Positions 2,937-9,332 of a stretch of 32,023 nucleotides of DNA are shown piece by piece. The notes under the pieces were generated by a model. That model ran no database searches. It saw nothing but the letters and a program-made list of their open reading frames with translations, and was not told where the DNA came from. Position 1 is the stretch's first letter; each line of letters begins with the position of its first letter. The translations under genes and the position numbers were made by a program. The stretch comes from a virus, in IMG/VR virus record IMGVR_UViG_3300025892_000082, positions 1 through 32,023 of that record; one strand, given 5' to 3'.

Positions 2937-2956
2937 AATAAAGAGTAGGATACTAA

Positions 2957-3499
2957 TTGAGTAATTTTAGATTTATAGAAAAGAACTTAGATGTAAGTAA
3001 AATATTACAACAGGTTCTTGACAACTCAGGCGACTGGAAGTATGTTAATAATTTAAAATCAGACGGCAAAGATGTTGGCGGTGACCTAGACCCATATGGA
3101 TTTTTACCTTTAGTTATGGCAGTTGTAAAGCCAGGAGAAAGTCCAAAGAATACAGAAAAAACTCAAAAGACCGAGCTCTATGATAAATATGATGAAGTTT
3201 CTAAATGGTTAAGAAGTCAAGGAATAACACAATTATCAAGAGCTGCATTTTTTAAGTTGGGTATTGATGAGTGGGTTGGTAAACATATAGATGAAGGAAC
3301 TTATTATTTGAGTAGGGATAGATATCATCTTTCTCTACAAGGCAGTTATGATTATGAAGTTGATGGTGAATGGCATACTATCGAGCCAGGCACTTTCTTC
3401 TGGTTTGATAATAAAAAATACCATCAGGCACATAATGTAGGTGATGTCGAAAGAATAACTTTTGTATTTGATGTACCCAAATCAGAAGACAATCCATAG
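2957..3499 (+). CDS. Aspartyl/asparaginyl beta-hydroxylase-like oxygenase
   Basis: A 180-residue protein with the cupin core of the Asp/Asn beta-hydroxylase family, 2-oxoglutarate/Fe(II) oxygenases that hydroxylate side chains of proteins. The signature part is residues 107-172. His110 in KHIDEG and RYHL (122-125) come first, then WFDNKKYH (149-156) and HNVGDVER (159-166). This matches the family order His...Arg-x-His-Leu...FDD-x3-His...ER; His110 and His156 are the likely iron ligands. It starts with TTG behind TAGGA, 20 bases after tRNA-Asn; no ATG fits. T4-like marine phages often carry a homologue. The substrate is unknown: a phage or host protein. Confidence 0.75.
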   Translation: MSNFRFIEKNLDVSKILQQVLDNSGDWKYVNNLKSDGKDVGGDLDPYGFLPLVMAVVKPGESPKNTEKTQKTELYDKYDEVSKWLRSQGITQLSRAAFFKLGIDEWVGKHIDEGTYYLSRDRYHLSLQGSYDYEVDGEWHTIEPGTFFWFDNKKYHQAHNVGDVERITFVFDVPKSEDNP

Positions 3500-3511
3500 T
3501 AAGGACACAAG

Positions 3512-3793
3512 ATGTATAAACCTCTACCAGAAGAAGTAACAATAAAAAAATCAGATATACATGGACTTGGTCTTTGGTGTGTAAAACCGATCAAAGAAGG
3601 AACAGAGATCGGAATTTCACATTTTTATTGGGGAGAAGAATTGCAAAGAACTCCATTGGGTGCTTTTTATAATCACTCTGATGAGCCGAATATAGTAAAG
3701 ATTAGAGAAGATAGTAGGTTCTTTATTGTTGCCACTAGAGATATTTGGCCAGGCGAAGAACTTACATGTCAATATACTTTTTATCAGTTGTAA
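3512..3793 (+). CDS. SET-domain protein (putative lysine methyltransferase)
   Basis: At 93 residues this is a minimal SET domain. Visible motifs in order are HGLGL (17-21), the N-terminal SET turn that binds S-adenosylmethionine; GAFYNHSDEPN (50-60), matching the NHS-x-x-PN knot; and GEELTCQY (81-88), with the likely catalytic Tyr88. SET enzymes transfer a methyl group from SAM to protein lysines; very small single-domain versions exist in viruses such as chlorella virus vSET. The N-terminal part between the motifs is short, so this is close to the minimum fold. It lies 12 bases after the hydroxylase-like gene, so the pair may form a protein-modifying operon. The target is unknown. Confidence 0.8.
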   Translation: MYKPLPEEVTIKKSDIHGLGLWCVKPIKEGTEIGISHFYWGEELQRTPLGAFYNHSDEPNIVKIREDSRFFIVATRDIWPGEELTCQYTFYQL

Positions 3794-5594: not shown

Positions 5595-6178
5595 TAGAAG
5601 GATTTACGCCACCTTGTGTGGTATTCAGAACTAGGGTCAGAGATGAATCAATCGAAGGCCCAAACCCATATCGTTGGGAAGATGTAACAAGTGATGAATT
5701 GTTTAAAGGCAAGAGAGTAGTTTTATTCAGTTTGCCTGGCGCATTTACACCTACCTGTTCTACATATCAATTGCCTGGTTTTGAAAGTAATTATTTAAAG
5801 ATTAAAGAATATGGTATTGACGAAGTGTACTGTATTTCGGTTAACGATGCATTTGTTATGAATGCATGGGCCAAAGCACAGGACATTCAACATGTAAAAG
5901 TTATTCCAGATGGTTCTGGAAACTTTACTCGATTTATGGGAATGTTAATTGGTAAAAACCATTTAGGCTTTGGTATGCGTAGTTGGAGATATATGTGTGT
6001 TATTAATGACGGCAAGATTGAACACTGGCGGCAAGAGGCAGGTATTAATAACGATGGAAGTGACGATGACCCATATGTTGAAACAACTCCAGAAAATATG
6101 GTGAGTTATCTAGACCAATATAATATGTGGAATGAAGTTAAACAACGAACCGCTATGGGCGATTATAAGGTTATTTGA
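5591..6178 (+). CDS. Peroxiredoxin (Prx5/AhpC-TSA type)
   Basis: A 195-residue thiol peroxidase that reduces H2O2 and organic peroxides. The catalytic motif PGAFTPTC (residues 49-56) holds the peroxidatic Cys56 and Thr53. A conserved Arg follows at about 136 in GFGMRSWRY. The segment KRVVLFSLPGAFTPTCSTYQ and the later YCISVNDAFVMNAWAK match the Prx5 subgroup. Length and motif order are complete. The gene lies in a tightly coupled operon (ATGA with the gene before, TGATG with the Mom-like gene after). A phage copy may protect replication from oxidative stress in sunlit water; that role is inference. Confidence 0.9.
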   Translation: MIEGFTPPCVVFRTRVRDESIEGPNPYRWEDVTSDELFKGKRVVLFSLPGAFTPTCSTYQLPGFESNYLKIKEYGIDEVYCISVNDAFVMNAWAKAQDIQHVKVIPDGSGNFTRFMGMLIGKNHLGFGMRSWRYMCVINDGKIEHWRQEAGINNDGSDDDPYVETTPENMVSYLDQYNMWNEVKQRTAMGDYKVI

Positions 6179-6975
6179 TGTACGACATAAGGCCCCTTCA
6201 TAAAAATAACGCTTCTGTATTTGTTGCAGAACGTCATTATTCTGCAGTTATGCCTCGACTAACTAAACATTATCTAGGGTTTCACTTAGATAATAAGTTA
6301 GTTGGGGTCTTAACTTTAGGGTGGGGAACTAATCCTATGGGAACAATTAAAAAAATGTTTCCAGATTTGACAACTTCTGATTACTTTGAGATTGGAAAGA
6401 TGTGTATGGATGATTCTATGCCAAGAAATTCTGAATCCCAAATGTTATCTCAAACAGTAAAGTGGATGCGTGAAAATACAGATGTAAAATATCTCTATAC
6501 TTGGGCAGACGGAATAGTTGGAAAGCCGGGATATGTTTACCAATCTGCAAACTTTCTTTATGGTGGTTTTATATGGTCTGATGTATATGTCTCTGAGACA
6601 GGCGAGAAGGTGCATTTTAGGACTATACAGAGGAAGATGAAGAAAGAGATGGGTAGAGATGATACGAAGTATGGCCCTCGACCAAATGACGCTAAAATGG
6701 GTGAAATGGGGTTTTCAAGAGTTTGGGGTAAACAGTTCAGATATATTTATCCACTGACTAAAAAAGATAGAAAGTATATGAATAAATATTCTACTTGTTG
6801 TTGGACAAATAAATATCCAAAGGATGAAAACTTGCAGTGGAAAATCAAACGGCCAGGCGAAACAGATTATGAGTGGTGCGATGATATGCCATTCACTCAT
6901 AGTAATGATATAAAACACAATAAGAGTAATATTGCAAGATATAAGGCAGATATTACGATTGACAATTTTTTTTAA
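6178..6975 (+). CDS. Mom-like DNA-modification protein (GNAT fold)
   Basis: A 265-residue protein resembling phage Mu Mom and relatives, GNAT-fold enzymes that modify adenine in phage DNA to block restriction. Features in order: RHYSAVMPRLTKHYLGF near residue 20; NKLVGVLTLGWGTNP, the central strands; FEIGKMCMDDSMPRNSESQ and a helix; then YLYTWADGIVGKPGYVYQSANF, matching the Mom pattern of an Ala-Asp followed by Gly-x-x-Tyr-Gln-Ala/Ser-x-Asn. The C-terminal 100 residues are unique and basic. ATG 6178 overlaps the peroxiredoxin stop; a TTG at 6175 is an alternative. A general GNAT acetyltransferase is the other possibility. Confidence 0.6.
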   Translation: MYDIRPLHKNNASVFVAERHYSAVMPRLTKHYLGFHLDNKLVGVLTLGWGTNPMGTIKKMFPDLTTSDYFEIGKMCMDDSMPRNSESQMLSQTVKWMRENTDVKYLYTWADGIVGKPGYVYQSANFLYGGFIWSDVYVSETGEKVHFRTIQRKMKKEMGRDDTKYGPRPNDAKMGEMGFSRVWGKQFRYIYPLTKKDRKYMNKYSTCCWTNKYPKDENLQWKIKRPGETDYEWCDDMPFTHSNDIKHNKSNIARYKADITIDNFF

Positions 6976-8127: not shown

Positions 8128-8321
8128 ATTTAAAATGGGGGTATTTTTTAAGTATCCCCATGACTTCTTACTTTATCCTTCTATTCCTCTTAGGTTTATT
8201 TGGAAAAAGTTTAATGATATTTACACCAGAAAAAAATATAGTAATGTATGAGTTTTTTGGTGTTGTATTAATACATTATATTTTTTATATTATTTTTTGC
8301 TTGACAAAAAGAAAAGAATAG
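8124..8321 (+). CDS. Putative holin (two-helix membrane protein)
   Basis: A 65-residue protein with two hydrophobic segments, about residues 7-28 (FLSIPMTSYFILLFLLGLFG) and 40-58 (FFGVVLIHYIFYIIFCL), and a basic C terminus (TKRKE). The start overlaps the endolysin stop (ATGA), so translation is coupled. Two membrane segments, small size, positive tail and position next to an endolysin fit a class II holin, but no sequence motif defines holins. The last 21 bases carry the -35 box of the tmRNA promoter. Confidence 0.65.
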   Translation: MNLKWGYFLSIPMTSYFILLFLLGLFGKSLMIFTPEKNIVMYEFFGVVLIHYIFYIIFCLTKRKE

Positions 8322-8331
8322 TGTATAAATA
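8301..8331 (+). promoter_or_regulatory. Overlapping sigma70 and T4-type late promoter for tmRNA
   Basis: TTGACA at 8301-8306 and TATAAA at 8324-8329 with a 17-base spacer make a strong sigma70 promoter. The same -10 region reads TATAAATA (8324-8331), the exact T4 late-promoter octamer used by the gp55/gp33 system. Transcription would start near 8336, at the beginning of the tmRNA acceptor piece. Confidence 0.8.
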
Positions 8332-8399
8332 CAATTGTAATTGTTGATACGATTCAACATACATACTGGACTCGGGGGCAGTACCCGACAGCTCCACCA

Positions 8400-8463
8400 A
8401 AAACATACTAGTGTCCAGTTAAGTTTGGAACACATCTGATAAAGTGGCTAGTATGTTTTTGAT
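8400..8463 (+). other. Intervening segment removed from pre-tmRNA
   Basis: Between the CCA end (8399) and the 5' GGGG (8464). AAAAACATACTAG (8399-8411) pairs perfectly over 13 bases with CTAGTATGTTTTT (8448-8460), stacking on the acceptor stem. It is expected to be cut out by RNase P at the 5' GGGG and by exonucleases at the CCA, giving the two-piece RNA. Confidence 0.85.
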
Positions 8464-8548
8464 GGGGCTGAACTAGGATCGACAGGTGTGTAGAGATGAG
8501 AGTAGATTACCGTGTTGACCTACGATATTCGGTCAAACAAAACTAAAC

Positions 8549-8590
8549 GCAAACGATAACTTTGCACCTGAGTTTGCTCTAGCAGCATAA
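8549..8590 (+). other. tmRNA tag-peptide reading frame
   Basis: GCA AAC GAT AAC begins a 13-codon frame giving ANDNFAPEFALAA and stopping at TAA 8588-8590. The ANDN start and ALAA end are typical of alphaproteobacterial tags, where the C-terminal hydrophobic residues are recognised by ClpXP. Confidence 0.92.
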
Positions 8591-8656
8591 TCAGCGGGGT
8601 ATGGGCTCCACCTTGTTACCAAACGGGCCCGCAGTCATAGTAAAAGGATTTAATAA

Positions 8657-9004
8657 ATGACAAGGTTTTTATTTGGAGCCGCTTCGGCGGTTTTTTTATG
8701 TACATCTGCAATGGCAGAGGGAATTAGAGGCTATATAGATGGTGAAGTTGAATATAGTTTGGAAAATGAAAAATTCACATCCGAATTAGGATACACAACG
8801 GCGCTTCCACAAGGATTGGTTTTGCGTCCATGGGCAGATTTTTCATATGATCGTAACGTAGCATCAGATACAATTAATTTTGATGGTGTTAATTTGGGAA
8901 TTTCATATGCAGTATCTCCTGCACTTTCTCTTTACAGTAATATTAGTGCAGATCACGATTTTGAATACGAAGATACATCAGTAGGCGTTCGTTTTGCATT
9001 CTGA
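8657..9004 (+). CDS. Small secreted outer-membrane beta-barrel-like protein
   Basis: A 115-residue precursor with a clear signal peptide (MTRFLFGAASAVFLCTSAMA, cleavage predicted after Ala-Met-Ala at 18-20). The mature part of about 95 residues is all-beta, with alternating hydrophobic positions (GYIDGEVEYSLENEKFTSELGYTT split into strands) and ends in Phe (VGVRFAF), the usual C-terminal signature for outer-membrane assembly. It is too short for a porin but could be a small barrel. AAGGA lies nine bases before the ATG. Its signal-peptide codons double as the tmRNA terminator hairpin. Possible roles are surface exclusion or envelope change during lysis; neither is proved. Confidence 0.7.
   Translation: MTRFLFGAASAVFLCTSAMAEGIRGYIDGEVEYSLENEKFTSELGYTTALPQGLVLRPWADFSYDRNVASDTINFDGVNLGISYAVSPALSLYSNISADHDFEYEDTSVGVRFAF
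8677..8697 (+). terminator. Rho-independent terminator of the tmRNA, inside a CDS
   Basis: AGCCGC (8677-8682), TTCG tetraloop, GCGGTT (8687-8692), then a run of seven T (8691-8697). The stable UUCG-capped stem lies 37 bases after the tmRNA 3' region and within codons 7-14 of the next gene. Confidence 0.8.
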
Positions 9005-9083
9005 TTTTTATATTATATAATAAAGGTGACAACTTCCTATAAAGTTGCTAATTACACACATCACACATAAAAGGAGAAATATG

Positions 9084-9332
9084 ATGAGTAATAAAAATCC
9101 ATTTGAAATTAGACTAGAAGTTTTAAAAATGGCAAAGGATATGTCTGAACAAAGTTACCAAATGGCAATTGATACATATTGGCAAACTTTGAATGCGACT
9201 GCAGAGACATGGAACAAAAGTGTTGAGGAATTGGTTCAACATACACAACACATGAAACCAGAAATGCCTGCCCCTCAAGACATCATGAAAAAGGCTCAAG
9301 AGTTGTATACTTTTATTTCAACTAAAGAGTAA
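9084..9332 (+). CDS. Small helical hypothetical protein
   Basis: An 82-residue all-helical protein (MSNKNPFEIRLEVLKMAKDM...). AGGAG (9072-9076) lies seven bases from the ATG at 9084; an ATG at 9081 is an alternative, while the longer frame from 9045 has no ribosome binding site. Repeated Met, Gln and aromatic residues (YQMAIDTYWQTLNATAETWNK) recall phasin-like helical bundles, and I recall similar proteins in marine T4-like phages. It is a single-gene unit with a strong terminator right behind it, suggesting high, isolated expression. Confidence 0.7.
   Translation: MSNKNPFEIRLEVLKMAKDMSEQSYQMAIDTYWQTLNATAETWNKSVEELVQHTQHMKPEMPAPQDIMKKAQELYTFISTKE

Follow-up and report, generated by a model that had tools for sequence, protein, structure and literature searches.

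A complete two-piece tmRNA gene in a T4-like phage contig, and a phage-owned tmRNA lineage that probably carries protein genes between its halves

The window – the whole 32,023-base stretch of DNA analysed here, a virus record (G000) – is a contig of a marine T4-like phage and carries, at 8337–8633 on the plus strand, a complete circularly permuted (two-piece) tmRNA gene, the one tmRNA in the record. The gene is probably part of a long-standing lineage of permuted tmRNAs owned by phages, with changes that the sampled bacterial genes do not show. In that lineage, the spacer between the halves would have come to carry small protein genes (for HNH and homing endonucleases, DUF6356 and DUF2061 proteins and short membrane proteins), so that a single transcript would act as mRNA and as tmRNA precursor alike, and in one class pseudoknot 1 (PK1) would have been lost. 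The window itself holds a plain member of this lineage, with a hairpin for a spacer.

A complete permuted tmRNA had been proposed here in a first-pass annotation, with a covariance-model search of the permuted form as the suggested check. Two Rfam models, both far above their cutoffs, bear the proposal out – RF04321 (tmRNA_permuted; 129.2 bits over 8337–8590, full model, Rfam cutoff 47) and RF01849 (alpha_tmRNA; 121.1 bits over 8284–8633, Rfam cutoff 50) – as does ARAGORN, which calls a permuted tmRNA with the tag ANDNFAPEFALAA at 8306–8681. The 3′ tRNA half comes first, and the 5′ half and tag follow it, the order running from the CCA end at 8399 through a spacer to GGGGCTG (from 8464) and on to the tag frame (Table 1). 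The seven-pair acceptor stem with its G3–U70 wobble (GGGGCTG/CAGCTCC), the T arm, the CCA and the tag frame are all present as first described, together with a helix 2 that joins the two pieces, an alanine resume codon and a hydrophobic LAA-type tag end, no identity element being lost; the 20-mer spanning resume codon and tag has 0 expected occurrences in shuffled window sequence. For helix 2, the pairing originally proposed stands and its extent does not, as an outer part (8337–8342/8505–8510) adds to it. PK1 reads as an H-type pseudoknot (8511–8514/8521–8524 and 8515–8520/8531–8536).

Table 1. Features at the tmRNA locus, in window coordinates
Feature	Position	Strand	Description	Basis
Composite promoter (predicted)	8301–8331	+	−35 TTGACA (8301–8306), 17-nt spacer, TATAAATA (8324–8331)	11/12 match
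Acceptor piece	8337–8399	+	Ends in CCA; 5′ end (8337) inferred from model start and promoter position	RF04321; T-stem covariation 82/82
Intervening segment	8400–8463	+	64 nt, putatively removed from the mature RNA	Fold; ORF shuffles
Coding piece	8464–8633	+	tRNA-like 5′ half GGGGCTGAACTAGGATCGAC, helix 2 5′ strand, PK1, tag, 3′ structured tail; 3′ end (8633) taken from RF01849	RF01849, RF04321; acceptor and helix 2 covariation
PK1	8511–8536	+	S1 CGTG/TACG, S2 TTGACC/GGTCAA	Read from sequence
Tag frame	8549–8590	+	Resume codon GCA, ANDNFAPEFALAA, stop TAA	ARAGORN
Terminator-like hairpin	8675–8701	+	GGAGCCGCTTCGGCGG then T7, within the start of ORF 8657–9004	

The window's spacer holds no protein gene, its longest ORF being 10 codons, a length equalled by 79% of shuffles. 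It forms instead a hairpin whose perfect 14-bp stem (8398–8411/8448–8461) includes the end of the acceptor piece and is stacked on the acceptor stem; the segment 8378–8475 folds at −38.0 kcal/mol. miRNA matches to this spacer were weak, far below cutoffs, and were rejected as chance matches to a hairpin.

The pairing of the RNA is kept across diverged phages. In phage copies chosen without pairing as a criterion, the T stem pairs in 82 of 82 at all five positions, with up to four pair types, and 516 of 525 acceptor-stem cells are paired, against a mean of 454 and a maximum of 469 with shuffled partners; the G3–U pair is kept in 74 of 75 relatives. Among 53 phage relatives, the outer part of helix 2 pairs in at least 43 at every position and in all 53 at some, each column showing several pair types; helix 2 columns with 53 of 53 pairing reach up to five. 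Compensatory changes (A–T to G–C and others) also occur in S2 of PK1, where at least four of the five pairs form in 35 of 52 aligned rows, the remaining rows having a different or differently aligned PK1. Since compensatory changes in the acceptor stem, T stem and helix 2 across diverged phages signify selection on the RNA, the window-type tmRNA is, by this comparative evidence, a maintained RNA.

The T4-like setting, also suggested at first pass, is upheld by core replication and structural genes. The contig encodes gp32 (phrog_224, 5e-110; its matches among phage records are T4-like, cyanophages first), a gp59 N domain (Pfam, 2e-10), and tail tube, baseplate hub and head closure proteins. 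PhoH and endolysin genes adjoin the tmRNA, and the gene order runs tmRNA, PhoH, PDDEXK, a gp33-like frame (called by eye), gp59, gp32. No SmpB gene was found on the 32-kb contig, so that host SmpB is presumably used, unless one is encoded in the part of the genome that the contig lacks. Elsewhere on the contig, 6175–6975 encodes a Mom-family protein (Pfam, 9e-49), probably for DNA base modification, and near a tRNA cluster lie genes for a SET-domain protein and an aspartyl/asparaginyl hydroxylase-like protein (3512–3793 and 2957–3499).

As permuted tmRNA is typical of alphaproteobacteria, a host contig, or a host gene misassembled into a phage, had to be considered, a doubt that the first-pass annotation itself had raised. 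Two sibling contigs make an assembly error unlikely: L021, which comes from a different metagenome, matches the window at 99.85% identity along 11.6 kb and is identical throughout 8251–8750, tmRNA included, and L090, 96.9% identical, ends inside the gene and holds its coding half. As, moreover, the nearest relatives of the window tmRNA in trees are those of other virus contigs (the phages L111 and L059), the phage origin is upheld and such an error is exceedingly improbable.

Relatives were gathered and parsed by a 20-base resume/tag motif, because ARAGORN missed many, calling 46 of 121 loci. In one scan the motif occurred in at least 120 IMG/VR contig stretches; in bacterial and archaeal genomes it occurred in 14 stretches among 84,980 genomes, some of them protein-coding or phage-like. 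Since the phages had been collected by tag motif and the bacteria by class, the tree was redone without the tag, and the phage tmRNAs still fell on one side of a branch from 44 alphaproteobacterial tmRNAs (91/97; with the tag, the bacterial tmRNAs were set apart at 100/99), within a resolution limited by short sequence and motif-based sampling. The trees thus point to a phage-owned lineage, and a recent capture from the sampled hosts is not supported. The tag points to no particular host, as a degenerate pattern of ANDNFAPEF had no match in the 84,980 genomes, nor does the alphaproteobacterial type of the RNA fix it, since phage Melnitz, with a tmRNA of the same type, infects a gammaproteobacterium. 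One permuted tmRNA that groups with the phages, L128, comes from a nominal Euryarchaeota genome (PBDU01000009.1) and is accompanied by a gp59-like helicase loader (31% identity, 2e-31); the contig looks like a misbinned T4-like phage, which may matter for how permuted tmRNAs reported from archaea are read.

The same evidence speaks to the idea that the gene is a passenger, an unused host ssrA gained by recombination or by imprecise excision of a prophage. ssrA is indeed a frequent integration site, with fragments found in prophages (PMC9004378), but here the gene is complete, shows long-term covariation and belongs to a phage-specific lineage; the same gene block recurs in diverged phages; and T4-like genes surround the tmRNA, with no integrase seen among the annotated window ORFs. 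We consider a passenger very unlikely.

The upstream region, too, suggests a gene with expression of its own. The TATAAATA element fits both a sigma-70-type −10 (TATAAA) and the T4 late-promoter consensus (the latter as used in PMC9004378), and a match as good as that of the composite promoter is attained by 1% of shuffles of the same stretch; a stock promoter scan accepts only −10 elements that end in T and therefore passes over it. Among 84 distinct phage tmRNA upstream regions (the window included), 52 have sigma-70 matches of at least 10/12, mostly at about the same distance, and 35 contain TATAAATA. This conservation of position of a sigma-70 and late-type promoter implies that the tmRNA gene is probably expressed on purpose, and the predicted promoter would perhaps act both early and late in infection. 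The role of the downstream terminator-like hairpin is unsure, as other family members compared have no obvious equivalent. The ORF in which it lies, directly 3′ of the tmRNA, is a small frame with a signal-peptide-like start, and a similar frame occupies the same place in 19 tmRNA loci. Another small and probably helical protein is encoded at 9045–9332, and at or near the tmRNA in L025, L034, L045, L051, L088, L102 and L114; it was considered as a possible tmRNA partner, and family searches gave no known family.

Taken together, the gene most likely represents a working, phage-owned two-piece tmRNA. The phage promoter would give one precursor RNA, in which the spacer hairpin may place the tRNA-like ends side by side for cutting; the 64-nt hairpin would be excised by host RNase P along with host enzymes that process tRNA 3′ ends, and the resulting acceptor and coding RNAs would be joined by the acceptor stem and helix 2. 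Host alanyl-tRNA synthetase, SmpB and EF-Tu could then use the phage tmRNA, freeing ribosomes stalled on broken mRNAs – of which many are produced when a T4-like phage breaks down the DNA and RNA of its host – and tagging the fragments with ANDNFAPEFALAA for host proteases. We infer transcription, cleavage, charging, tagging and benefit to the phage from sequence. Hosts already own a tmRNA, so that the phage gene is a second copy, which counts against its being a working tmRNA.

The phage RNA might alternatively draw SmpB, EF-Tu or stalled ribosomes off the host tmRNA, or attach a tag of another kind, thereby weakening host quality control or steering host proteins selectively into proteolysis for recycling. 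Selective tagging of host proteins has been proposed for Melnitz (PMC9004378), and expression in E. coli of a tmRNA-like RNA of mycobacteriophage DS6A that has no CDS leads to inhibition of host tmRNA, according to the passage of PMC11915505 that cites this work. In contrast to that inhibitor, the window RNA retains its tag frame intact, with ALAA at the end – LAA being a ClpX signal (PMC3968760) – and its sequence bears no sign of lost function. Competition with host tmRNA is on these grounds rather unlikely, and the working tmRNA remains the preferred reading.

Where the wider lineage departs from the sampled bacterial genes is, first, in the spacer. Phage spacers measure 8 to 514 nt (median 78.5), those of 36 bacterial rows 5–47 nt, with one of 105 nt. 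Sixty phage spacers reach 60 nt or more, and in 20 of these the ORF exceeds in length those of 95% of shuffles (3 expected); several spacer ORFs are preceded by a Shine–Dalgarno-like site. Protein-coding frames between the halves are seen in L003, L017, L020, L025, L031, L036, L039, L045, L048, L056, L074, L092, L109, L111, L115 and L202 (Melnitz), whose 142-nt spacer has an open frame after GGAG. The products include an HNH endonuclease in L074/L089 (phrog_2255, 2e-25), a homing endonuclease in L109 (phrog_655, 1e-11), a DUF6356 protein in L036/L082 (5e-12, above cutoff) and a DUF2061-like protein in L048/L056 (just below cutoff). Judged by substitution patterns, several phage spacer ORFs are under purifying selection: the L036/L082 pair differs by 8 silent and 0 replacement changes and L045/L114 by 3 and 0, while L045/L067 gives pS 0.71 and pN 0.13, and L039/L092 gives pS 0.82 and pN 0.27. 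A few short spacer ORFs (of the L018/L084 type) show no purifying selection and may not be genes. For permuted spacers, a tRNA gene and a repeat have been mentioned, and homing endonuclease genes only in intron form (PMC11915505); in the searchable non-subscription literature, we found no report of protein genes between permuted tmRNA halves.

The second departure concerns PK1, which is present in the window. The stretch between 5′ end and resume codon, 83–90 nt in 36 of 36 bacterial rows, takes three ranges in 86 unique phage genes: 79–88 nt in 54, 58–65 nt in 5 and 47–48 nt in 27. Members of the shortest class (among them L009, L025, L029, L031, L036, L039, L058, L069, L075, L095, L098, L099 and L116) keep helix 2, with 20–26 of 26 pairing per column, yet only about twelve bases separate the end of this helix from the resume codon, which leaves no room for PK1. 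Those tested score 72–96 bits against the Rfam permuted models, above cutoff. A search for the PK1-less form in 385 alphaproteobacterial genomes gave only four pattern matches, apparently chance or unrelated sequence, and we did not find a phage class of this kind described in the searchable literature. An engineered E. coli tmRNA in which single-stranded RNA replaces PK1 still tags (PMC4236655), and the PK1-less phage RNAs could thus work as well.

A phage-borne ribosome-rescue RNA suggests that phage production is held back by stalled ribosomes, and that the rescue system of the host does not suffice during infection. The family also offers natural material on whether PK1 is needed, as the 47–48 nt class seems to do without it, and bears on the use of a permuted gene, whose spacer can hold protein genes while the mature RNA stays unbroken. 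The window's type of promoter and an open spacer frame both occur in Melnitz, a cultured phage, where they are accessible to bench tests.

Two-piece tmRNAs of phages have been known since 2022, when one was described in the T4-like marine phage Melnitz, a count over phage genomes gave 53 such structures, of which 50 were marine or aquatic, and the functions that the first-pass annotation was to suggest were proposed (PMC9004378); 79 phage tmRNA sequences were listed in 2025 (PMC11915505). With this record, and with the many IMG/VR stretches that carry the motif, the novelty at first ascribed to the window gene does not hold.

Known tmRNAs of three sorts resemble it most closely. The Methylophilales phage Melnitz (MZ577097.1) and pelagimyophages, Mosig for example (PMC9004378), are likewise T4-like and have permuted tmRNAs of the alphaproteobacterial type; Melnitz further shares with the window the TTGACA-N17-TATAAATA promoter and the block of PhoH, PDDEXK nuclease, gp33, gp59 and gp32 genes. 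However, its ssrA lies between the PDDEXK gene and gp33, whereas the window tmRNA precedes PhoH; its tag is ANDNYVPVDYALAA rather than ANDNFAPEFALAA; its 142-nt spacer with an ORF contrasts with the window's 64 nt without one; and it has a reported glutamine riboswitch, which was looked for and not found at the window locus. Caulobacter-type alphaproteobacterial tmRNAs (RF01849) agree with the window in gene order, tRNA-like domain, helix 2, PK1, GCA resume codon and a tag of the form ANDN..LAA, although the 44 sampled alphaproteobacterial permuted tmRNAs form a branch separate from its phage group. Unannotated permuted tmRNAs that match Rfam tmRNA_permuted above cutoff also occur in Sinorhizobium phage Phosso (PV764938.1, L122; tag ANDNVSTKVALAA) and Ruegeria phage vB_RpoS-V10 (MH015255.1, L123; tag ANINNAPMEMAIAA), whose genomes are, as far as seen, of other kinds than that of the window phage; in vB_RpoS-V10, a GOLLD RNA lies directly 5′ of the permuted tmRNA (2345–2778 and 2949–3340). 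The window tmRNA is thus of a kind already known, to which it adds one member.
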